Made by a program: the position numbers and the translations under genes. A model generated the notes under the pieces. It searched no databases, was not told where the DNA came from, and worked only from the letters and a program-made list of their open reading frames with translations. Positions 7,272-17,841 of a stretch of DNA of 64,000 bases are shown here, in pieces (the stretch's first letter is position 1; each line of letters starts with the position of its first letter). Origin of the DNA: Roseibium sp. MMSF_3544 (GTDB lineage Bacteria; Pseudomonadota; Alphaproteobacteria; Rhizobiales; Stappiaceae). The DNA is taken from the NCBI RefSeq assembly GCF_030732845.1, contig NZ_JASHKA010000014.1, positions 62,001 through 126,000 of the forward strand. Reading direction: 5' to 3'.

Positions 7272-9095
7272 TCAGATCTCGGCCGGTTCGGGATCGCCCT
7301 GAACAAGGCCTGCCTGAGCGACTGCAGCAGTCGCGCCCTTTGACAATGCGGGCAGGTGAAGATCGGCAAGCTCGGCCGGAGGTGCGGTTTCTTCCGGGAT
7401 CCGCCAAAGTGTGGACCTGATCCCGAGAGTTCCGAGAAACTTCGTCGATGTCGACACAGCGATCAAGGCAGCGAGCAATGGCCCGACGGCAACCGGTATC
7501 ACCGGCCAGACGAGTTCGATGGGCTGGGCTGACATCCAGGTGAGGCCTGCGAGGCCGAAGAGCGTCTGCGGCCAAAGTTTGCTCACGGCAAGCGGCACCG
7601 GCAACCGTGAGACGCCACGTGCCTGCGCGCCCCAGCCGATGGTTTTTCCGAATGCCAGACCGCCCATGAACATGGTGTGGGCAACGGCCAGGATCGGCGC
7701 CAGCATGGCCGAATAGAGGATTTCCGCAGCAACGCTGACAACAACCCTGATGGGACCTCCAAAGGCTCTCCTGAGATCCTTGCGCACGAGAACATCCGCA
7801 ACGGTGGCGAGTTTGGGCGCAAACACCATGGTCAGCACCGTCGCAAACAGGATAAGTCCTGTATCCGGGCGGTAAGGTGCATAGTCCGTCGTCATTCCAA
7901 GGACCGCTGCACCGACCATGAAACCGATCCAGGCTGGTGAGCCCAGGAACATCAGGATCGCTAGAAAGAGCTGTGCACGGCTGACCGGCTTAAGGCCCTT
8001 CATGCCGAGAAGCCGGCGATACTGCAGGTTGCCCTGGCACCAGCGCAGGTCACGGCGAATGAATTCAAGCAAATGCGGAGGATTGTTTTCGTAGCTGCCG
8101 CTTTCCAGGGGCAGGACGCGAACGTGGTAACCGGCTCGGCGCATCAGGACAGCTTCGACCTGATCGTGCGACAGGATCGTGCCCGCCAGCGGGCCTTTGC
8201 CCGGCAGAACCGGAAGGCGGCAGTGTTCCTTGAAGGGCTTCAGTCGCAGGATCGCGTTGTGTCCCCAGTAAGGACCGCAATCGCCCTGCCACCAGGCGCT
8301 GCCGATCGTATAAGAACGCATGCCGAGACGCATGCCGAACTGGAAGACACGCGCGAAGGCGCTGTCCGTCGGCAGGCCGACAACGAGGCTTTGAAGGATA
8401 CCGATTTTAGGATTGACTTCCATCCGGCGCACAAGTTCGACAATGGCGTCTGCGGACATGTAGCTGTCGGCGTCCAGAACCAGCGCGAAGTCGTGATCAT
8501 CACCCCAACGCTCACAGAAGTCCTCGATATTGCCTGCCTTGAAGCCGGTGTTTTTCGCCCGGCGGCGATAAACGATCTCCATCTGACCGCTAAAGCGCTC
8601 GGACATTCTCGCAGCCATCTCCTGCTCGTGCAGGGCGACATCGTCGCGGGAAGTGTCGCTCAGAACATAGAGTTTGAAATGCGATGCCTGTTCTGCGCGG
8701 ATCAGGTTTGTGACCATGGCGCTGAGGTGGGTCTCAAGGCTCTCCACGTCTTCGTCGCGAACGCAGGACAAAAGCGCTGTTGAACTTTTCAAGGGCTTGT
8801 CCGCGTCACCGACCTTGATCGGACACACCGCAGCGACCGGATCGCGGGAAAGGCGCATCACAAGCAATCCGATGACTGCGTTCCAGAACCCGATGATTGT
8901 CCACGGCAGGGTCACCATGAAACAGAACAAGATGAAGATATCGAGCGGCTTGAGGCCACCCGGAGAAAGCGTCACAGCCATCAAGACAGTGAGCCCGACG
9001 AAGCTCGTTCCAAGCAGAAATGCAAAGAGCAGTCGCCTGATCGTCATTTTGGTCGCTGTTTTGTCTGAAATGGAGGGGTCAGAGACTCGAAACAT
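7272..9095 (-). CDS. opgH: Glucan biosynthesis glucosyltransferase H
   Basis: Inner-membrane GT2-type glucosyltransferase that builds the backbone of osmoregulated periplasmic glucans. It has hydrophobic segments at the N terminus, a cytoplasmic catalytic domain with the donor-binding motif LVLDADSYM and the RWCQGN version of the QxxRW motif, then several C-terminal membrane spans. I choose ATG 9095 because GGAAG lies 8 bases upstream and the homologous N terminus starts near there; a TTG at 9143 is possible. The partner OpgG is not adjacent. Confidence 0.88.
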   Translation of the reverse strand: MFRVSDPSISDKTATKMTIRRLLFAFLLGTSFVGLTVLMAVTLSPGGLKPLDIFILFCFMVTLPWTIIGFWNAVIGLLVMRLSRDPVAAVCPIKVGDADKPLKSSTALLSCVRDEDVESLETHLSAMVTNLIRAEQASHFKLYVLSDTSRDDVALHEQEMAARMSERFSGQMEIVYRRRAKNTGFKAGNIEDFCERWGDDHDFALVLDADSYMSADAIVELVRRMEVNPKIGILQSLVVGLPTDSAFARVFQFGMRLGMRSYTIGSAWWQGDCGPYWGHNAILRLKPFKEHCRLPVLPGKGPLAGTILSHDQVEAVLMRRAGYHVRVLPLESGSYENNPPHLLEFIRRDLRWCQGNLQYRRLLGMKGLKPVSRAQLFLAILMFLGSPAWIGFMVGAAVLGMTTDYAPYRPDTGLILFATVLTMVFAPKLATVADVLVRKDLRRAFGGPIRVVVSVAAEILYSAMLAPILAVAHTMFMGGLAFGKTIGWGAQARGVSRLPVPLAVSKLWPQTLFGLAGLTWMSAQPIELVWPVIPVAVGPLLAALIAVSTSTKFLGTLGIRSTLWRIPEETAPPAELADLHLPALSKGATAAVAQAGLVQGDPEPAEI

Positions 9096-9193
9096 ATTTT
9101 TGACTTCCAATCCGGGCAATCGTGGCGATAGTGCGCATGTCAAAATGTCCTAATATTGACAGCGTTTAGGCGAATAAGCGGAATTTTACGGGA

Positions 9194-10207
9194 ATGATTG
9201 AGAACGAGGTGGTGACGGGCGGCACAGGCGATGCGCTGGCCTTGTGGTACGCGGAACGCGGGCGCTGCAGACTTGAAACGGTTCCGGTTAAGGGGCCGCA
9301 GTCTGGAGAGGCGCTTGTTCGCACGCTCTATAGCTGCGTTAGCCGGGGTACGGAAGGTCTTGTTTTTCGAGGCGAGGTGCCCGAGAGCGAATGGCTGCGC
9401 ATGCGCGCGCCCTTCCAGGAAGGCGACTTCCCGTTTCCGGTGAAATACGGATATTCCAGTGTCGGAACGGTGCAGGAAGGTGATTCCGGCCTTGTCGGTC
9501 GCACTGTATTTTCGCTCTACCCACATCAAAGCGTCTATACGCTCCCATCCAGTTCCTGCGTGCCTGTTCCCGATGGCGTTTCGCCCGAACGTGCTGTTCT
9601 TGCTGCCAATATGGAAACAGCGCTTAACGCTATATGGGACGGAAAACCATCACCTGGGGATCACATCTGCGTGGTCGGAGGCGGGGTTGTCGGTCTCCTG
9701 ACCGCATACGTCGCCGGCAGATTGCCCGGATCAATTGTAACCGTCATAGATACAAACCCTGAGCGCGCAGAAACTGCGCAAGCACTTGGAGTTGCGTTTT
9801 CGCTGCCCGAGGATGCACCGCAAGATCAGGACCTTGTGTTCCACACCAGTGCGAGCCCGGCCGGGCTTGAAACCGCGCTGAAATGCGCCGGCGACGAGAC
9901 ATCAATTGTCGAAATGAGCTGGCATGGCGCGCAAAATGTCGCAGTTCCCCTTGGGGCCGACTTTCACTGCCGTCGGTTGAAGCTGATCTCAAGTCAGGTT
10001 GGAACGATCCCCCTGGAGCGCCAGCCCCGGTGGACATACAGGCGCCGCCTGGAGACGGCACTCTCGCTGTTGACGGATCCGGCGCTTGACCGGTTGATCA
10101 GTCACAGGATCCCCTTCCGAAGCCTGCCGGACAGGCTTCCCGAATTGTTGAACAAGGCGTCAGATGTTCTGGCCGCCCTTGTTGTTTATGAGGAGCAGTC
10201 CGGCTAG
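9194..10207 (+). CDS. MDR-family dehydrogenase lacking zinc ligands
   Basis: Medium-chain dehydrogenase/reductase with a GroES-like N-terminal half and a Rossmann half (VVGGGVVGLLTA, residues 160-171). The SRGTE segment near residue 50 resembles the subgroup that includes bacteriochlorophyllide dehydrogenase BchC. Where zinc enzymes have a GHE motif, this one has YGYSS (residues 85-89), so catalytic zinc is unlikely. It is the first gene of a compact operon with a pterin-synthase-like protein, a glycosyltransferase and a methyltransferase. The ATG at 9194 has a poorly spaced ribosome binding site, so the exact start is uncertain. Substrate unknown. Confidence 0.75.
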   Translation: MIENEVVTGGTGDALALWYAERGRCRLETVPVKGPQSGEALVRTLYSCVSRGTEGLVFRGEVPESEWLRMRAPFQEGDFPFPVKYGYSSVGTVQEGDSGLVGRTVFSLYPHQSVYTLPSSSCVPVPDGVSPERAVLAANMETALNAIWDGKPSPGDHICVVGGGVVGLLTAYVAGRLPGSIVTVIDTNPERAETAQALGVAFSLPEDAPQDQDLVFHTSASPAGLETALKCAGDETSIVEMSWHGAQNVAVPLGADFHCRRLKLISSQVGTIPLERQPRWTYRRRLETALSLLTDPALDRLISHRIPFRSLPDRLPELLNKASDVLAALVVYEEQSG

Positions 10208-10252
10208 ACAGCCGGTACGACCGTTCGCCCAGAAATTTCAGGAACCTTGAAA

Positions 10253-10651
10253 ATGTTTGCAGTTGAAGTTCGTGACCATGTGATGATCGCCCATTCGTTC
10301 AAGGGTGAACTCTTCGGCCCCGCCCAGGCGCTGCACGGCGCGACTTTCGTCATTGATGCGGCATTCCTGGCCCAAAGCCTTGATGAAAACGGCGTCGTGA
10401 TCGATATCGGCCGCGCGCACGAGGCGCTGAAAGAGGTTCTTCAGCCGCTCAACTACAAGAATCTGGATGACGTTCCGGAGTTTGCCGGCGTCAACACCAC
10501 CACCGAGTTCCTGACCAAACACATTCACGATCATCTGGCCAAAGCCGCACGCGACAATCGTCTCGGCCGACCGGGCGGCGAGCTTGATGCGATCCGGATA
10601 ACAATCTCAGAGTCGCATGTTGCCCGTGCCTGGTATGAAGCGAAAATCTGA
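10253..10651 (+). CDS. Degenerate PTPS/QueD-like protein
   Basis: 132-residue T-fold protein of the 6-pyruvoyl/6-carboxytetrahydropterin synthase family. His14 and His28 match two of the three zinc ligands, but the third (second His of HGH) is Ala30 (HGATF). The catalytic Cys position is Ala24, and the Asp-His pair of QueD is Asn67-Tyr68 (LNYKNLDD). Glu120, matching the C-terminal substrate-binding glutamate, is kept. It is therefore unlikely to do normal PTPS or CPH4 chemistry, although automatic annotation would probably call it QueD. The ATG at 10253 follows AGGAA. It lies 45 bases after the dehydrogenase and 6 bases before the glycosyltransferase. Confidence 0.8.
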   Translation: MFAVEVRDHVMIAHSFKGELFGPAQALHGATFVIDAAFLAQSLDENGVVIDIGRAHEALKEVLQPLNYKNLDDVPEFAGVNTTTEFLTKHIHDHLAKAARDNRLGRPGGELDAIRITISESHVARAWYEAKI

Positions 10652-10657
10652 CCGGCG

Positions 10658-11710
10658 ATGAAGAAGCTGAACTTCGCCTATCCCGGCGATATCGACACCC
10701 CGACAGGCGGATATGGCTACGATCGAAAGATCATTACCGGCTTGCGCGATCTTGGCTGGCAGGTCGATCTGGTATCCCTCGGCGAGGGATTTCCGCTTCC
10801 TGACCAGGCAACGCTTGACGAGGCACAGAAGCGCCTGACGCGCCTGCCCCACGGGGAGGCACTGGTTATCGACGGACTGGCGTTTGGTGTCATGGCGGAA
10901 GCCGCCGCAGTGTTAGCAGATCAACTCGACCTGGTGGCATTGGTGCATCATCCGCTGTGTCGCGAGACCAGTCTTTCTCCCGAAACAGCAGCCGCGCTGC
11001 AGGAAAGCGAGCGAAAAGCGCTGTCCTTCACCAATCACATTATTGTGACAAGTCACGCGACAGCAACCCAGGTCATGGACCTGTTTGACGTTCCTGAACA
11101 AGACATCTCGGTTGTGCTCCCGGGCACGGAGAAGCCGGCCATGGTGGACCGCGCCGAGCGGGAAAGCTTGCGTCTCTTGTCAGTTGGCACGGTCGTTCCC
11201 CGGAAGGGATACGACCTCCTGTTCAGCGCTCTGGAAACCCTGAAGGAATACGATTGGCATCTCGACGTGGTTGGGGGGACAGACGCAGACACCGGTTGCT
11301 ATCGGTTGCTTCAGGCTCAACTTGCCGATCTCGTTCTAACGGAGCGCGTTACCTTTCACGGGGCGGTCGCTCCGGAAGAGCTTTCCGGGTTTTACGGAAA
11401 TGCGGATGTATTCGTGTTGGCAAGCCGTTACGAAGGATATGGAATGGCCTATACCGAGGCACTCGCGCATGGTCTGCCAGTCATCGGAAGTGGCGGTGGC
11501 GCCGTTGCGGATACACTGCCTGAAGGTGCAGCCATCTACTGCGGCACGGAAGATGTTGGCAAGCTGCGCGCTGCGCTTGAGCTGTTGATCCAGGATAACG
11601 CCAAGCGCGAAGAAATGGCGATGGCAGGGGCTCGCGCCGCGTCGGCCTTGCCGGACTGGATGGATGCAGCGACAGAGTTCGCATCAGCGCTTGAACGGAC
11701 CAAAAAATGA
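10658..11710 (+). CDS. GT4-family glycosyltransferase
   Basis: GT-B fold retaining glycosyltransferase. The N-terminal domain starts with a GGYGYDRK acceptor-side loop. The C-terminal domain carries GTVVPRKGYDLL and the nucleotide-sugar motif EGYGMAYTEALAHGLPVIG (the EX7E glutamates). It is soluble and 350 residues long. It starts 6 bases after the pterin-synthase-like gene and its stop overlaps the next start by 4 bases, so all four genes from 9194 to 12504 are probably one transcript. This suggests it glycosylates a small molecule made by that operon rather than the exopolysaccharide, though the polysaccharide locus begins just downstream. Confidence 0.85.
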   Translation: MKKLNFAYPGDIDTPTGGYGYDRKIITGLRDLGWQVDLVSLGEGFPLPDQATLDEAQKRLTRLPHGEALVIDGLAFGVMAEAAAVLADQLDLVALVHHPLCRETSLSPETAAALQESERKALSFTNHIIVTSHATATQVMDLFDVPEQDISVVLPGTEKPAMVDRAERESLRLLSVGTVVPRKGYDLLFSALETLKEYDWHLDVVGGTDADTGCYRLLQAQLADLVLTERVTFHGAVAPEELSGFYGNADVFVLASRYEGYGMAYTEALAHGLPVIGSGGGAVADTLPEGAAIYCGTEDVGKLRAALELLIQDNAKREEMAMAGARAASALPDWMDAATEFASALERTKK

Positions 11711-12504
11711 GCGGGTTTTCGGCTGAGTGGTTGGCGTTACGAGAACCGGTTGATCTTGCCGCCAGAAACCGGGACGTCGAAGCAGCGTTCGTGGAGCAGT
11801 TGCCCGATCGCGCACCAAAGCTCCTTGATCTTGCCAGCGGTGCCGGTTCGACGGTCGCTGCTTTGAGGGACCGGATACCGGTTTCGGCAAGCTGGCAACT
11901 GACGGACTACGATCAGGCACTTCTGGATGTTGCAGCCAGGCGCTGGCAAGACAAGGTGGGCGGAGAGTTATCGTATCGCCGCATTGATCTTGCTGCATCG
12001 CTCGAGGATTTGCCGTTTCGAGACGTCGACGCAATCACGACATCCGCTTTTCTGGATCTCGTATCCGAGGCATTTCTCTCCCGCCTTGTCGATTGCATAA
12101 CACAAGTCGGGAAACCCTTCCTTGCCAGCCTGACCTATGACGGCCGAGTAGCCTTCCATCCGATCGCAGGCCTGGACCAGGCCATGCACGATGTCTTGAA
12201 TCGGGATCAGAAGACGGACAAGGGTTTTGGACGTGCCCTTGGTCCGGATGCAGCACAACGGGCCGTTGAATTGTTCATGGCTAAAGGGTACCGGGTGGAG
12301 CAGGGAAAATCGGACTGGCAGGCCGGGCCCGTCGAGCAAGCATTCCTGGATGAGTTTCTGGATGGCTGGGTTGGTGTCGGCTTGAAAAACGGGCTCGCTC
12401 AAGAAGACCTCGAAGAATGGCGACAGAAACGTGCGGATGATATCCTGTCCGGTGACTTCAAGGTCACAATCGGGCATATCGACTTCGCAGCCTTTCCCCG
12501 ATGA
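11707..12504 (+). CDS. Class I SAM-dependent methyltransferase
   Basis: Rossmann-fold methyltransferase, 265 residues. The SAM-binding motif I is LLDLASGAGST near residue 40, followed by an acidic residue in QLTDYD at the end of beta-2. Its start overlaps the glycosyltransferase stop (ATGA), a sign of translational coupling, and it is the last gene of the four-gene operon. No recognisable substrate-specific domain is seen. It ends 50 bases before the convergent flippase gene, with no obvious terminator between. Confidence 0.82.
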   Translation: MSGFSAEWLALREPVDLAARNRDVEAAFVEQLPDRAPKLLDLASGAGSTVAALRDRIPVSASWQLTDYDQALLDVAARRWQDKVGGELSYRRIDLAASLEDLPFRDVDAITTSAFLDLVSEAFLSRLVDCITQVGKPFLASLTYDGRVAFHPIAGLDQAMHDVLNRDQKTDKGFGRALGPDAAQRAVELFMAKGYRVEQGKSDWQAGPVEQAFLDEFLDGWVGVGLKNGLAQEDLEEWRQKRADDILSGDFKVTIGHIDFAAFPR

Positions 12505-12553: not shown

Positions 12554-14041
12554 CTACTGAAGGAATGCCAGTGCGCGCAATGCCACCGGCTGAACACGGC
12601 AGGGAAACTTGTCGCTGATCAGTCTTCCGAGCGCGTTCAGGTCGTTGCGTGGAAACGGTTTGATCAGTCGGAGAAATGCCAGGTAGACAAATGCCGCGCC
12701 GGGAATGGCGAGCAGCAAGCCGGGCAGTCCGTCAATGAAGAAAACAATGATGGACGCGGTCGCTGCACAGGCAACTCCGGACACCAGAAGTTTGGCCATG
12801 GCAACCAGGTTGACGCTCAGGCCAAGGGCTTTGTGGCAATAAGTGAGCATGAAAGCGAAGGCGAAAACGCCGATGAGACCGCGCACGATTGCCGCGCCCA
12901 CGCCGCCATAGACCGGCACAAGCACGAGATTGAGGATGACCAGGATCCCGGCAAACACAATGTTGATCAGAAGCAGCGGCCGGTCATGCTCGAAAGCGAG
13001 CATTGCGGAAAGCATGACGGCGGAAAGCGCCTGTGGCAGAGCGAACAGAACCAGCAAGGTTCCAATCGGGATCGCAGCTGCAAAATCCTGACCGAATGCA
13101 AGTGGAATCAGGGCCGGCATAACCGCTGCGCCGCCGAGGCTCACGGGAACGAGCAAGAGCGAAAGCCATCTCAAGGCCCTGTCATAGGAAAGCTGCAGGT
13201 CCTCTCTTGCGTGATCGTCATGCAGTTTTCCAAATCCCGGTGTGAGGCCGGCTGCAAGATAGAGCGACAATTGCAATATCAGGCTGGAGAACGTGACGCC
13301 GACGGCAAAATAGCCGACTTCGGTCACCGTGAAAAAGAAGCCGATGAACAGGAATTCAACGCGCGTCTTGACGAGCGTGTCGAGCACGATCGTCAACCAG
13401 TTGCTCTGTCCGTAGCGAACCATTTGGGGCGTGATTTCAATGCCTTCGGTCCGTGAGGGGTGCTTGTAGGCACTCAATCCGAAAGCCTGTGGCAGATACC
13501 GGCAAAGGTAGCCTGCCATGGCGCCGGCCGGACCGAAAAAGACCGCTCCGGCGATTGTCACGGGGATTTGCAAGGCGCAGCCCCACGCCGTCTTCTGGGC
13601 CGTCTTGTGAAAATGTCCAAGGCCATGATCGGCTGCAATTACATAATGCCCCTGGGCATATGCAAAGCAGATCAGCCCGGCAATTCCCCAGACAAGCGCA
13701 TTGTTGAGGCCTTCAAAAAAATAGTCGCCAACGCCATAAGCGAGGAAGAGTGTGCTGGCGAGCAAAACGGGCCAGAGAAACCGCCTGTAAAGCAAGTTGA
13801 CGAGGCCGTTTTGCGCCTCGGCCGTGTTCTCCTGGCGTGAAATGTAACGCAGGACGATCGCGGGTACGCCTGTGCTGGAGATGATTGCAGCGGTAATCGC
13901 CACCCAAACAGCCAGTGCTGTGAGTCCGGTTCCTTCCGCGCCCAGGAGACGTGCAATGACCACGGAGCTCACGAAGCCGGCAACCAGCGACATGATGCCG
14001 GACGCAGACACGAACAGGCTGGCGTTTAGAATAGACTGCAT
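12554..14041 (-). CDS. Polysaccharide flippase, Wzx/MATE-like
   Basis: Integral membrane protein of about 495 residues with roughly 12-14 hydrophobic segments, of the oligosaccharide flippase (MOP) superfamily. It moves lipid-linked oligosaccharide units across the inner membrane for Wzy-type polymerisation. ATG 14041 is chosen because AGGGA precedes it and the first membrane segment (LNASLFVSASGIMSLVAG) begins there; the open frame upstream to 14287 is not protein-like. A glycosyltransferase on the same strand lies just upstream, and the rest of the polysaccharide locus reads the other way from 15.5 kb. Confidence 0.83.
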   Translation of the reverse strand: MQSILNASLFVSASGIMSLVAGFVSSVVIARLLGAEGTGLTALAVWVAITAAIISSTGVPAIVLRYISRQENTAEAQNGLVNLLYRRFLWPVLLASTLFLAYGVGDYFFEGLNNALVWGIAGLICFAYAQGHYVIAADHGLGHFHKTAQKTAWGCALQIPVTIAGAVFFGPAGAMAGYLCRYLPQAFGLSAYKHPSRTEGIEITPQMVRYGQSNWLTIVLDTLVKTRVEFLFIGFFFTVTEVGYFAVGVTFSSLILQLSLYLAAGLTPGFGKLHDDHAREDLQLSYDRALRWLSLLLVPVSLGGAAVMPALIPLAFGQDFAAAIPIGTLLVLFALPQALSAVMLSAMLAFEHDRPLLLINIVFAGILVILNLVLVPVYGGVGAAIVRGLIGVFAFAFMLTYCHKALGLSVNLVAMAKLLVSGVACAATASIIVFFIDGLPGLLLAIPGAAFVYLAFLRLIKPFPRNDLNALGRLISDKFPCRVQPVALRALAFLQ

Positions 14042-14168
14042 TGCGTTCCCTGGGTGAAGGCTCAGTCCGCACGCGGCCTCCACTCGCCTTTTGGTCAATG
14101 TTACCGCCAAGACCTTAAAAAAAGGATGCCAAGTGCCTTGCAGAAAGGCGGAGCACAATGTCCCGAGG

Positions 14169-15368
14169 CTAGGCGGCAACCTGTCTGCGTCTGATCGCAA
14201 GAGACAGAGCGTCGGTGTAAGCCGACGCGATCTTGTCAGCCTTGTAGAGCTGCGCACTTTGCAGCGCGCCTGCCGACAAGCGCCCAAAACGATCCGGATC
14301 GCCTGCTATCCGCAGGAGGGCTTCCTGAAGCAACTCCGGATTTCCGGGCACTACCAGCAAGCCATTCCTGTCCGGCTGGACCGTCTCCGAAATACCGCCG
14401 AGATCAGATCCCACCACTGGCACGGCGTGGGCAAAGGCTTCCACCGCAACCCGGCCGAAAGCTTCCCGGCCTACGGAGGGAAACGCGAGGAGATCTATTT
14501 TGGGAAAGAACTCTTCAGGCTTCATCCAGCCCGTGAAGGTTGTTCTATCCGGCGGAAAGAGCGCGCGCGCCCGTTCGGCAAAAGCATCCCGCCCGGTTCC
14601 GGCAATCACGAACTCAATATTTGCATCTTCGGGAATGAGCGCAGCCGCCTTGCCAAGGACATCGAAGCCCTTGAAAGGCGTGTGAACGCTGATGAATCCG
14701 ATGCGAAACGGCCGGTCCGTTGGAAATGACAGGGGTTCATGTGCAACGAGTGCCGGTATCGCGCCTGGAATGCGCACCGCTTCCGCGTTGCGGAAATATC
14801 CTTCCGTACGATGCCGTTCAAGGATGTAGTTGGATTCCCCGATGACAACATCGACCTGTTGCGAAAAGCGCCGCTTGCCGAGCGCGCTGACCTTGCACGT
14901 CAGGCATTGGTGCTCGCAAGGTTTGCCGTTTTTCTGCATCACGCCTTTCCAGCATAACAAAAAGGCGCTTCGTATCGTATGGGCGACCGGCACACCCAGC
15001 GAGCGCGCAGCTGCCCAAGTTGCCACATTGATGTTCTCGATGCTGTCGGTCAGAACGATGTCCGGATTGTAGTCGGCAATCTCCTTGCGCATTTCGCGAT
15101 AGGCGCGCGGATTGCCGTTTTCCAGCGCGTGCCAGGCAAGCTTTTGCCACTTGGGGCGTGGCTCGTAATAGTTCCAGTAAAGGTTCAGCGAGGATTTTCG
15201 CTGAACCGGAATGCCTTCATAGTCCTCGCGCTTTTCCTCGTCAGAGACATGGACCACGCGCAATTCGTGCCCCTCGCTCTTTAAGAGCTTGGCAAGCAGT
15301 AGAGCGGAGACGGGACCACCGCCGTCGATAAACGGCGGGAAAGCGGCGCACGGCATCAGAATTCGCAT
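14169..15368 (-). CDS. GT4-family glycosyltransferase (EPS locus)
   Basis: About 400-residue GT-B glycosyltransferase. The N-terminal domain has the GGGPVSALLLAKLLKSEGHE acceptor-side region. The C-terminal domain has FISVHTPFKGFDVLGKAA and the GREAFGRVAVEAFAHAVPVVG donor-sugar motif. It carries four closely spaced cysteines around residues 150-165 (CWKG...CEHQCLTCK), possibly a metal site, which occurs in some GT4 enzymes of this type. ATG 15368 is chosen as the conserved start; a TTG at 15395 is possible. It is upstream of and probably co-transcribed with the flippase. Confidence 0.83.
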   Translation of the reverse strand: MRILMPCAAFPPFIDGGGPVSALLLAKLLKSEGHELRVVHVSDEEKREDYEGIPVQRKSSLNLYWNYYEPRPKWQKLAWHALENGNPRAYREMRKEIADYNPDIVLTDSIENINVATWAAARSLGVPVAHTIRSAFLLCWKGVMQKNGKPCEHQCLTCKVSALGKRRFSQQVDVVIGESNYILERHRTEGYFRNAEAVRIPGAIPALVAHEPLSFPTDRPFRIGFISVHTPFKGFDVLGKAAALIPEDANIEFVIAGTGRDAFAERARALFPPDRTTFTGWMKPEEFFPKIDLLAFPSVGREAFGRVAVEAFAHAVPVVGSDLGGISETVQPDRNGLLVVPGNPELLQEALLRIAGDPDRFGRLSAGALQSAQLYKADKIASAYTDALSLAIRRRQVAA

Positions 15369-15555
15369 CGGCTCGTCTGCTTTCGGTTTTGGCAACTGGC
15401 CCTTTGGCTACGCACGAACAATTGTCCTCATAGTGTTACAGAAACGTAAGCCCGCGCTTTCCTGCGGTCTTTGCGCTCGTTTGGGTTTCCCAAAAATTAA
15501 CTGCGAAGACGGTAGAAAAAGGCAGTGAGACACTTGAGAAACACGCGGATTCGCG

Positions 15556-16686
15556 GTGGAAAGCAGGATCTGCGCGGCCATGCAGAGCGAATGCAATCAC
15601 AAAGATGAGGACCTTCCCGTAACGAGGCTTCACGTTTCGGCGAAGGATCGTTTGCGCCGCCAGGTGAAAACCCTGGGACTTCAAACGCTGTCCAGAACCG
15701 GGCTCGCCGGGCTTGTCGGGCGCCGGTATCGCGGTCGCGGCGTCATCTTGATGTTTCACGAGTTCACGACCGAACCGGAAACAAAGCTCGGCCAGGGCTG
15801 CCGGATTCAGGACTTCGAAGCCATTATCAAACAACTCAAGGCCTCGGGCCGCGAGTTTGTCGGCATGTCCGAGGCAATGAGAAGGCTGACCGACCCCGGC
15901 GGCAAACCGTTTGCCGTGCTTACCTTCGATGACGGCTACAGGTCGAATATGGAACTGGCGCTTCCAGTCATGGAACGCTACCAGGCGCCGGCGGTCATTT
16001 ATGTTCCGACCGAGGTGGTCACCAGAACCATAAATGCCTGGTGGCTCGGACTGCGGGACGCGGTCTTGAAAAACGACCAGGTTGAGTTCGAGCCGCTTGG
16101 AACCCGTTTCGCATGTGAAAACTATTCAGAGAAACTGGCGACCTTTCGTCATCTGCTTGCCTGGGTCTGGCAGGATTTCAGAAGGGCTGATCAGCTTGAG
16201 CCGGTCTTCAGACAAAGCGGCACGTCCATTCCGGATCTGGTCGATACATTCTTCATGAATGAAGCGGAGATGTGCAGCGCCGACAGGCATCCCTTGATCG
16301 AAATCGGCGCACACACGACAACCCACAGGGCACTTGCCCTACTGCCTGACGACGAGGTGCGCCGTGACGTCGGTGACAACAAGATCTTCCTGGAACAGAA
16401 GCTGGAACGCGAAGTGCCGCATTTCGCGTTTCCCTATGGCCGACCTTCCCTGACCGGCCGCCGAGAAGCCGAGATCGTCCGGTCACTCGGATTTCAGACC
16501 GCGGTCACGACGGATCCGGGATGCCTGTTTCCGGACCATCTTCAGGATGTATTCCTCCTGCCGCGCCAGGATGCTGAATATCCCGAAGACGGCTTGTCTC
16601 ATGTCATTTGCGGAATGAACGGCTTCTACCGTGCGCTGTCGACGCGGGGTGGTCCGCCTGTGACTGACCTGGCCGCAGAGTTGTGA
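15556..16686 (+). CDS. Polysaccharide deacetylase family protein
   Basis: NodB-homology carbohydrate esterase (CE4) that removes acetyl groups from N-acetylhexosamines. The conserved motif is TFDDGYRS with the metal Asp, followed later by the histidine motif region (IGAHTTTHRAL) and the AFPYGRP segment. No clear signal peptide is present, so it may act in the cytoplasm on lipid-linked sugars. It begins the plus-strand run of the exopolysaccharide locus, and the next gene starts directly after its stop. Start at GTG 15556; ATG 15580 is an alternative. Confidence 0.83.
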   Translation: MESRICAAMQSECNHKDEDLPVTRLHVSAKDRLRRQVKTLGLQTLSRTGLAGLVGRRYRGRGVILMFHEFTTEPETKLGQGCRIQDFEAIIKQLKASGREFVGMSEAMRRLTDPGGKPFAVLTFDDGYRSNMELALPVMERYQAPAVIYVPTEVVTRTINAWWLGLRDAVLKNDQVEFEPLGTRFACENYSEKLATFRHLLAWVWQDFRRADQLEPVFRQSGTSIPDLVDTFFMNEAEMCSADRHPLIEIGAHTTTHRALALLPDDEVRRDVGDNKIFLEQKLEREVPHFAFPYGRPSLTGRREAEIVRSLGFQTAVTTDPGCLFPDHLQDVFLLPRQDAEYPEDGLSHVICGMNGFYRALSTRGGPPVTDLAAEL

Positions 16687-17841
16687 ATGAACCTGACGAA
16701 AGAACATCCTTTGGCGGAATGCATTGAAGATCTCTCGGTCGTTCACGTGGTGCGCCAGTATGCGCCCATGATCGGCGGGCTCGAGGATTTCGTGCGCCAG
16801 CTCGTTTCACGCCAAAGGGGCAGATTCCGGAACCTGCGTGTCGTGACGCTCGACCGCCTGTTCACCGAACCTGACCGGAAACTGCCGATGCACGAGGAAA
16901 TCGAAGGCGTCGATGTCCACCGCATTCCCTATCATGGCAGCAAGCGGTATCCACTTGCCCCCGGCGTGTTCTCCCAGGTCGCCGATGCCGACCTGGTTCA
17001 TGTTCACGCCGTGGATTACTTTTTTGACGCTTTGGCGCTGTCAAATGTGTTTCGCAGGAAAAAACTCGTCGCGACCACCCACGGCGGTTTCTTTCACACA
17101 GACGCTTTCATGGCATTGAAGAAAGTCTGGCTGAACGGCCCCACCCGTTTGTCCGCGTCCTTCTACGACGCAATCGCATGTTGCTCTGCGAACGACTTTG
17201 AAATGTTCAATAAGATTGCACCGAGCAAGGTGACGCTGATCGAAAACGGTGTCGATTGCGACAAGTTTCGCAATGCCTCGTCGCAAGACCCCGTCAAGCG
17301 AATTGTCACGATTGGACGGTTTTCGAAAAACAAGCGGCTCGATATGCTTTTGAAGGCCCTTCATGATCTGGTTGCACGGGACGCTGATTGGCATCTGGAC
17401 ATCATTGGCTCGCCTTCTGACCTGTCCGTTGAGGATCTGAGGGCTCTCGTTGCGCGGCTCGATCTGGAGCACCATGTCGATTTCCACATTCGCGTCAGCG
17501 AAGAGGAGATGAGGCAAGTCATGTCGGCTTGCAGTCTTTTCGCCAGCGCGTCTGAATATGAAGGTTTTGGCATCGCGATGGTGGAAGCCCTCTCCGCCGG
17601 GCTGATACCTGTGGTGGCGCCGAACACCGCCTTCAAGTCACTGGCAGTCAAGCATCCGGCCGTTCGCCTGACGTCCTTTGAAAACCCGCAAGAGGCAGCG
17701 CTTGCCATAACTCGGGCTGGCGAGGATCTCGCGCTCGATCCGGACATGCGAATGGCCGCGATGACGTCAGCGGAGCAAAACAGCTGGGATGCGGCCGTCC
17801 GTCACTATGACGACTTCTATCGGAAGGCGGTGACAGCATGA
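16687..17841 (+). CDS. GT4-family glycosyltransferase (EPS locus)
   Basis: 384-residue GT-B glycosyltransferase. The N-terminal half contains PMIGGLEDFVRQLV, and the C-terminal half has TIGRFSKNKRLDMLLKAL and the donor-site motif SEYEGFGIAMVEALSAGLIPVV. Its ATG begins directly after the deacetylase stop codon, and its own stop overlaps the next start, so the genes from 15.5 to 21.3 kb form a translationally coupled operon. It should add one sugar to the repeat unit; the sugar cannot be predicted. Confidence 0.86.
   Translation: MNLTKEHPLAECIEDLSVVHVVRQYAPMIGGLEDFVRQLVSRQRGRFRNLRVVTLDRLFTEPDRKLPMHEEIEGVDVHRIPYHGSKRYPLAPGVFSQVADADLVHVHAVDYFFDALALSNVFRRKKLVATTHGGFFHTDAFMALKKVWLNGPTRLSASFYDAIACCSANDFEMFNKIAPSKVTLIENGVDCDKFRNASSQDPVKRIVTIGRFSKNKRLDMLLKALHDLVARDADWHLDIIGSPSDLSVEDLRALVARLDLEHHVDFHIRVSEEEMRQVMSACSLFASASEYEGFGIAMVEALSAGLIPVVAPNTAFKSLAVKHPAVRLTSFENPQEAALAITRAGEDLALDPDMRMAAMTSAEQNSWDAAVRHYDDFYRKAVTA

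Follow-up and report, generated by a model that had tools for sequence, protein, structure and literature searches.

The question raised by a 64,000-nucleotide stretch of Roseibium sp. MMSF_3544 (contig NZ_JASHKA010000014.1, positions 62,001 to 126,000; hereafter the window) is what a pterin-synthase-like protein does when its active site does not match that of the known synthases. Four + strand open reading frames (ORFs) at 9194-12504 of the window, in a genome of 6.9 Mb, encode in order a medium-chain dehydrogenase/reductase (MDR), a 132-residue protein resembling 6-pyruvoyl-tetrahydropterin synthase (PTPS) and QueD, a family 4 glycosyltransferase (GT4) and an S-adenosylmethionine (SAM)-dependent methyltransferase. 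A first-pass annotation had described the second protein as one that lost its catalytic residues and had proposed that the four genes serve a dedicated, undescribed small-molecule pathway. Our analysis suggests that the operon's product is probably a GTP-derived, sugar-decorated compound. The protein family is already known; a useful and testable extension is that its operon is fixed and is linked, across domains, to GTP-opening enzymes.

Active sites of the PTPS-like protein and the dehydrogenase

We aligned the family profile with human and rat PTPS and with E. coli QueD. FGKC of these enzymes corresponded to FGPA24 of the window protein, HGH to H28-G-A30 and LDHKNLD to LN67Y68KNLD; i.e., Ala24 stands in the PTPS column of the catalytic Cys, Ala30 in that of the third zinc His and Asn67-Tyr68 in that of the Asp-His pair. 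H14, H28 and E120 (presumably the pterin-anchoring Glu of the fold) are retained, and the residues had thus been read correctly by the first-pass annotation. All hallmarks looked for in PTPS/QueD, namely the Cys of CxxxHGH or CxxxxxHGH, the third zinc His and the Asp-His pair, are missing, and catalytic residues that are present but shifted were ruled out, since the entire protein contains no Cys at all. The QueD chain in the alignment (4ntk) also has Ala at the Cys position; we take it to be a Cys mutant of QueD.

Relatives were collected in two ways. Set A comprises the best 80 of 187 relatives, found by peptide patterns, and set B comprises 44 independently drawn genomes of the class besides the window's own, with proteins found by profile. 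In an alignment of 87 proteins (the window's, the 80 of set A and those of six plasmid loci), H14, A24, H28, A30, Y68 and E120 were invariant and N67 was present in 81, while the FGPAQ motif was fixed at F21, G22, A24 and Q25 (87/87) and nearly so at P23 (85/87). These counts carry a bias, as one of the patterns that found set A is HGATFVID. Set B, which is free of it, showed H14, S15, A24, H28, G29, A30, T31, D51, D72, E85 and E120 in 44/44 proteins. The recurrence in homologues, which the first-pass annotation had proposed to check, therefore holds for Ala24 and Ala30; Asn67 (24/44) and Tyr68 (35/44, with Phe in 8) are less fixed.

Reading FGPAQ at residues 21-25 identifies the window protein, by sequence, as a new member of the known PTPS-IV subfamily of COG0720. 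This motif is the PTPS-IV signature in PMC5445326, where it marks a 561-sequence cluster (cluster-node 62) with PF00925 and RibD_C neighbours; the subfamily is also named in PMC5041015. An AlphaFold model (pLDDT 88) is consistent with T-fold membership, matching 3D7J, the structure of SCO6650 from Streptomyces coelicolor, with a Foldseek E of 5.9e-15 and QueD with 2.2e-6. 3D7J is the closest solved structure (E 4e-42 by sequence; 53% identity by Foldseek), and weaker fold matches include dihydroneopterin aldolases.

Database records label the relatives 6-carboxytetrahydropterin synthase, i.e., QueD of queuosine synthesis, and the window protein is the sole PF01242 match of its genome. However, this automatic name is contradicted by the PTPS-IV active site: CxxxHGH is missing and the QueD model scores 37.9 bits against a cut-off of 89. 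Moreover, the sole QueC match in the genome (28.6 bits; Pfam cut-off 22) covers one third of the model and lies inside an NAD synthase (252 bits). We consequently rejected a queuosine role, which is scarcely credible here.

Since the replacing residues are invariant, the PTPS-IV site is, to judge from the alignments, a different site and not a decayed one, and "lost catalytic residues" is correct only relative to PTPS/QueD. The missing residues might suggest a decaying PTPS relic. However, the substitutions are found in 44/44 set B proteins, and PTPS-IV has the highest conservation of the four proteins, with median identities for PTPS, MDR, GT4 and methyltransferase of 90, 73, 60 and 57% in loci L002-L030 (L-numbers denote individual loci examined) and 54, 50, 40 and 35% in set B. 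Internal stops occurred in 0/45 PTPS-IV matches of class genomes, and the gene is kept in three genomes of 1.4-1.6 Mb. The chance of a relic is negligible, and this candidate was rejected.

The sequences offer no obvious substitute for the third zinc ligand: besides H14 and H28, no His is conserved throughout set B (H9 35/44, H122 26/44). With the Cys, third zinc His and Asp-His pair all replaced, PTPS-IV might be a non-catalytic T-fold carrier that passes a pterin-like intermediate to the MDR, GT4 and methyltransferase of the same pathway, or a pterin sensor. However, numerous polar residues besides E120 are invariant in set B (H14, S15, H28, T31, D51, D72 and E85), and a zinc-type site persists in the haloarchaeal counterparts, whose genes stand in the same order, which suggests catalysis there. 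We regard a carrier or sensor as possible but doubtful, and favor an active enzyme.

The MDR was weakly matched by libraries; its best NCBIfam model, BchC (TIGR01202), scored 50 bits against a cut-off of 291, and a fold search returned general alcohol and polyol dehydrogenases only. The GHE-type catalytic zinc motif is missing, as the first-pass annotation had noticed, and KYGY stands at what we take, by motif, to be its place. The fixed portion is not the YGYSS reported there: G86-Y87 was found in 126/126 aligned MDRs while S88 and S89 vary, and S50-x-GTE and KYGY are kept in nearly all 126. Considering that MDR enzymes without zinc are common, the zinc-free MDR is, on sequence, the lesser oddity of the operon, though KYGY is specific and fixed.

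Recurrence of the operon and its wider neighborhood

Neighboring genes were scored with partner-gene profiles built from the set A and plasmid proteins, counting only loci with enough flank; since the profiles derive from set A, its counts are partly circular. In set B, the MDR gene was directly upstream of the PTPS-IV gene in 42/44 loci and the GT4 gene directly downstream in 42/43; the three were contiguous in 41/43, and the methyltransferase gene lay just downstream in 37/42. Corresponding counts for set A were 76/79, 78/78, 74/77 and 64/75. The neighbors that the first-pass annotation had proposed to check thus recur. Six betaproteobacterial loci (L031, L034, L045, L067, L071 and L076) differ in having the methyltransferase gene ~5 kb upstream on the opposite strand.

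PTPS-IV was present in 45/385 sampled genomes of the class and 27/398 of the phylum, both including the window's genome, and its distribution was patchy inside orders and families and in at least one genus. As related species do not count as independent, we note that the 45 holders represent 34 genera. A fixed MDR-PTPS-GT4-methyltransferase core surrounds most PTPS-IV genes of these 45 genomes. No paper on such an operon was found among open-licence PubMed Central papers, which is not proof of absence. The three 1.4-1.6 Mb genomes, two of them from one genus (L161-L163), keep all four genes together with RibD_C, GTP cyclohydrolase II (GCHII) and creatininase genes.

Relatives of PTPS-IV also occur in 21 plasmid records. 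The core was contiguous in four of the six first examined (L091-L096), including those of Streptomyces fungicidicus (L092) and a gammaproteobacterium (L095); in L096 the GT4 gene is set apart. Among the others, an Agrobacterium plasmid (L174) carries the complete set by annotation, L172 carries no annotation and L173 is archaeal. Two Streptomyces plasmid loci, L091 and L171, have as neighbors of PTPS-IV a cupin, a metallo-beta-lactamase (MBL)-fold hydrolase, a sigma-70 factor and a BTAD regulator, which is a second, distinct context.

Beyond the core, RibD_C was encoded within 6 kb in 28/35 set B and 26/56 set A loci, and GCHII near the core in 16/35 and 19/56. A CDP-alcohol phosphotransferase gene lay within 7 kb in 13/35 set B loci and in 0/55 of set A, and creatininase-family genes were found near the core in 7/35 and 12/55, respectively. 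As a rough control, three unrelated stretches of the window's own genome contained no PTPS and only the expected riboflavin genes (GCH2 46 bits, RibD_C 114 bits).

The immediate surroundings in the window allow another reading, namely an exopolysaccharide or glycolipid locus, with the PTPS-like protein as a bystander to the sugar chemistry. A flippase, several GT4 proteins and a polysaccharide deacetylase are encoded downstream of the operon, and some of the relatives repeatedly show GT2, ABC and FkbM genes. However, a flippase homolog occurs in only some of the 80 set A loci, at their far end, and GCHII and RibD_C are without a role in sugar polymers. The divergent GT2 gene, kept in 73/77 set A loci, was found in just 8/42 of set B, where RibD_C is retained; GT2 therefore appears to be a lineage-level associate and not part of the core. 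We consider a polysaccharide locus improbable.

Links to GTP-opening enzymes and a candidate pathway

GTP can be opened by either of two unrelated enzymes, GCHII and GTP cyclohydrolase III (GCH III). The best evidence that ring-opened GTP would be the precursor is that one or the other adjoins the same MDR and T-fold genes. GCHII of locus L046 counts as a full member of PF00925 (187 bits) and aligns with E. coli RibA through the zinc Cys motif. The RibD_C protein of the same locus has archaeal reductases of the diamino intermediate (6p8c, 2azn) as its best PDB matches. It lacks a deaminase domain; the 2-amino group may thus be retained, in keeping with the invariant E120.

GCH III enters through the haloarchaea. 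The weakest plasmid match, from Natronorubrum (30% identity), itself matched 12 other plasmid records, nine of them haloarchaeal. By annotation of nine of ten loci (L173, L175-L182), MDR precedes PTPS in 9/9, with an opposite-strand ORF between them in Natronorubrum and a PTPS that is unannotated but matched in H. marismortui. GT4 directly follows PTPS in 5/9, an annotated methyltransferase follows in 7/9 (an unnamed ORF in the other two), and a CDP-alcohol phosphotransferase is nearby in 6/9. A gene for GTP cyclohydrolase IIa adjoins the MDR-PTPS pair in 3/9, all Haloarcula; Pfam confirmed GCH_III for the one Haloarcula cyclohydrolase tested (276 bits). The methyltransferase of that locus gave no Pfam match but is matched by our methyltransferase profile at 65 bits. 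The association of PTPS-IV with two GTP-opening cyclohydrolases that are not related to each other points to a likely precursor.

On this basis, since the residue pattern and neighbors recur and the wider clusters add GTP cyclohydrolase, RibD_C and CDP-alcohol phosphotransferase, the best reading is a dedicated pathway from ring-opened GTP, of which the operon would encode the intermediate and later steps, its T-fold protein being an active enzyme; we give this an even chance. To judge from the relatives' neighbors, GCHII, or cyclohydrolase III in some haloarchaea, would open GTP to a (formyl)diamino-ribosylamino-pyrimidinone phosphate, and a RibD_C reductase would turn the ribosyl into a ribityl chain. 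The zinc-free MDR would then oxidize or reduce the side chain. The PTPS-IV T-fold would bind the 2-amino-4-oxo-pyrimidine or pterin via E120 and perform side-chain chemistry without zinc, Cys or Asp-His, nearer to metal-free dihydroneopterin aldolase than to PTPS. Finally, the GT4 would glycosylate and the methyltransferase methylate the product. Family assignments, gene order, fixed residues and recurring neighbors are observed; the reactions, their order and the product are our inference. The dedicated pathway of the first-pass annotation thus stands as the best reading; "undescribed" does not extend to the protein itself, which is described as PTPS-IV and has a relative of solved structure. 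If the reading is true, guanosine labeling offers a direct test of what this widespread orphan gene cluster makes.

Several observations weigh against a pathway from ring-opened GTP, among them the precursor supply in the window's own genome. Its sole PF00925 protein is a DHBP_synthase fusion (L085, 6077-7396; RibBX-like, as we would name it). The cyclohydrolase half of this fusion (108-110 bits) has LESVLDDVF...RPLDH in place of the CLTGD...CDC found in E. coli RibA and the cluster enzymes. The genome contains no dedicated RibD_C, its two matches being a full RibD with deaminase domain and a 192-residue protein, both elsewhere. In the flanks of L002-L030, RibD_C was found in 2/29 loci (Pannonibacter L023 and L025) and GCHII in 0/29. 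The window's genome thus has neither a dedicated GCHII nor a dedicated reductase, and its lineage must obtain the precursor from another source or use a changed version of the pathway. In addition, NCBIfam ranks the L046 RibD_C protein higher with bacterial ribD models, all under cut-off, so that the archaeal function is not singled out. The Streptomyces plasmid loci L091 (12001-12426) and L171 (9001-9399) carry PTPS-IV without adjacent MDR, GT4 or methyltransferase. Lastly, the haloarchaeal PTPS proteins are, by motif, cousins and not PTPS-IV, because the seven aligned retain all three zinc His and carry Glu in place of the catalytic Cys.

Across the 13 genomes searched within the window's genus (L085; L192, L195-L197, L199-L203, L205-L207), the single PF00925 match was in each case a DHBP synthase fusion. 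A CLTGD...CDC regular expression found nothing in 12 relatives of the genus (one a fragment), although L189, a strong GCHII match of another family, escaped it as well. A recognizable GCHII may be missing from the genus, even though RibD is present.

Other cluster enzymes were less informative. GCHII of S. fungicidicus (L092, 14479-15138) has Met where other cluster GCHII proteins have Tyr (RAM vs. RAY or RTY), a position that we presume to be significant, and its gene adjoins a creatininase-family gene. Handling of a formylated intermediate by the creatininase would apply at most to Streptomyces, as proteobacterial clusters with creatininase keep the GCHII Tyr. Creatininase proteins tested against ArfB gave weak scores of 29.5 and 37 bits (cut-off 180). 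The CDP-alcohol phosphotransferase tested had no PDB relative at E 0.001 and matched named families only below cut-off.

Cofactor F420 likewise derives from the GCHII/GCH III and RibD route, and a role in its synthesis has to be weighed. Such a role is stated for archaeal PTPS-IV, from unpublished work, in PMC5041015. However, the window's genome gave 0 CofH matches, compared with three over cut-off and eight more below it among 14 control genomes, and GT4 and methyltransferase neighbors do not fit. F420 synthesis is thus very improbable and was rejected for the window's genome; archaeal members lie outside this test.

More broadly, the clusters might represent an unrecognized pathway common to haloarchaea, Streptomyces and the Alpha-, Beta- and Gammaproteobacteria. 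It would turn ring-opened GTP into a pterin or diaminopyrimidine bearing sugar and methyl groups, which the CDP-alcohol phosphotransferase encoded in many of the clusters would link to a phospho-alcohol or lipid; the T-fold enzyme would be zinc-less in bacteria and zinc-type in archaea. Such a product would be a new class of GTP-derived cofactor or a membrane-bound redox or light-absorbing molecule. Reduction by RibD_C and subsequent oxidation by the MDR might even regenerate, one after the other, the keto side chain that takes GTP cyclohydrolase I a single step. We offer this extension tentatively and consider it rather unlikely.

Layout of the locus and comparison with known systems

The four genes are separated by only 45, 6 and -4 bp, so a single transcript is plausible; the tight packing described by the first-pass annotation is borne out, and its one transcript is kept at that strength. 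A promoter scan found 0 sites where 1.1 were expected by chance, i.e., nothing over chance, and a terminator scan gave 6 vs. 3.6 expected; neither was informative. Pfam scores were 76.5 bits for PTPS, 91.5 for Glycos_transf_1 and 28.5 for Methyltransf_25. The PTPS-like ORF starts at ATG, and an alternative TTG start at 10247 would give 134 residues. The GT2 gene, unmentioned by the first-pass annotation, diverges 50 bp upstream of the operon, and a flippase gene converges 49 bp downstream. The region after the operon (12554-17841), with the flippase, two more GT4 proteins and a polysaccharide-deacetylase-family protein, resembles an exopolysaccharide locus.

Table 1. Features of the operon and the adjoining GT2 gene, in window coordinates.
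Feature	Position	Strand	Basis
GT2 glycosyltransferase, divergent, 623 aa from TTG start	7272..9143	-	ORF, Pfam
MDR dehydrogenase, 337 aa, BchC-like, without usual zinc-ligand motifs; S50-RGTE and KYGY	9194..10207	+	ORF, NCBIfam, alignment
MDR KYGY motif, residues 84-87	9443-9454	+	alignment
PTPS-IV protein, 132 aa, T-fold (predicted), PF01242	10253..10651	+	Pfam, structure search, alignment
H14 codon, retained zinc-site His	10292..10294	+	alignment
Codons 21-25, FGPAQ, PTPS-IV signature; A24 at PTPS/QueD catalytic Cys position	10313..10327	+	
Codons 28-30, H28-G29-A30; A30 at third zinc His position of PTPS/QueD	10334..10342	+	
Codons 67-68, Asn-Tyr replacing Asp-His pair	10451..10456	+	alignment
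E120 codon, invariant Glu	10610..10612	+	alignment
GT4 glycosyltransferase, 350 aa	10658..11710	+	Pfam
SAM-dependent methyltransferase, 265 aa, 4 bp overlap with GT4	11707..12504	+	Pfam

Compared with QueD and 6-pyruvoyl-tetrahydropterin synthase, the window protein shares the T-fold, two zinc-site His and the anchoring Glu, but is without the Cys, third zinc His and Asp-His pair and has 19-23% identity to the PTPS/QueD structures listed. SCO6650 (3D7J) is much closer and has the same motifs as the window protein (FGPAQ, HGA, LNYRNLD and HESH); the study of its structure reportedly found no zinc, no catalytic triad and no PTPS activity, and its pterin-binding residues are reported to be kept. 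For the Streptomyces gene neighborhood, the S. fungicidicus plasmid locus L092 stands in for SCO6650's own. BchC, the bacteriochlorophyllide dehydrogenase, is the closest NCBIfam model to the MDR, yet it is far under cut-off and belongs to another gene context. The haloarchaeal clusters share the MDR subfamily (31-37% identity in three compared, with SxGTE and YGY) and a similar gene order, whereas their PTPS protein has the three zinc His and the Glu at the Cys position in 7/7 aligned. PTPS-IV as described in PMC5445326 has FGPAQ in common with the window protein, and GTP_cyclohydro2 and RibD_C neighbors in common with relatives examined here. However, both neighbors are missing around the window operon and in most of its lineage, and the MDR, GT4 and methyltransferase partners are not among the neighbors reported in the available part of that source.

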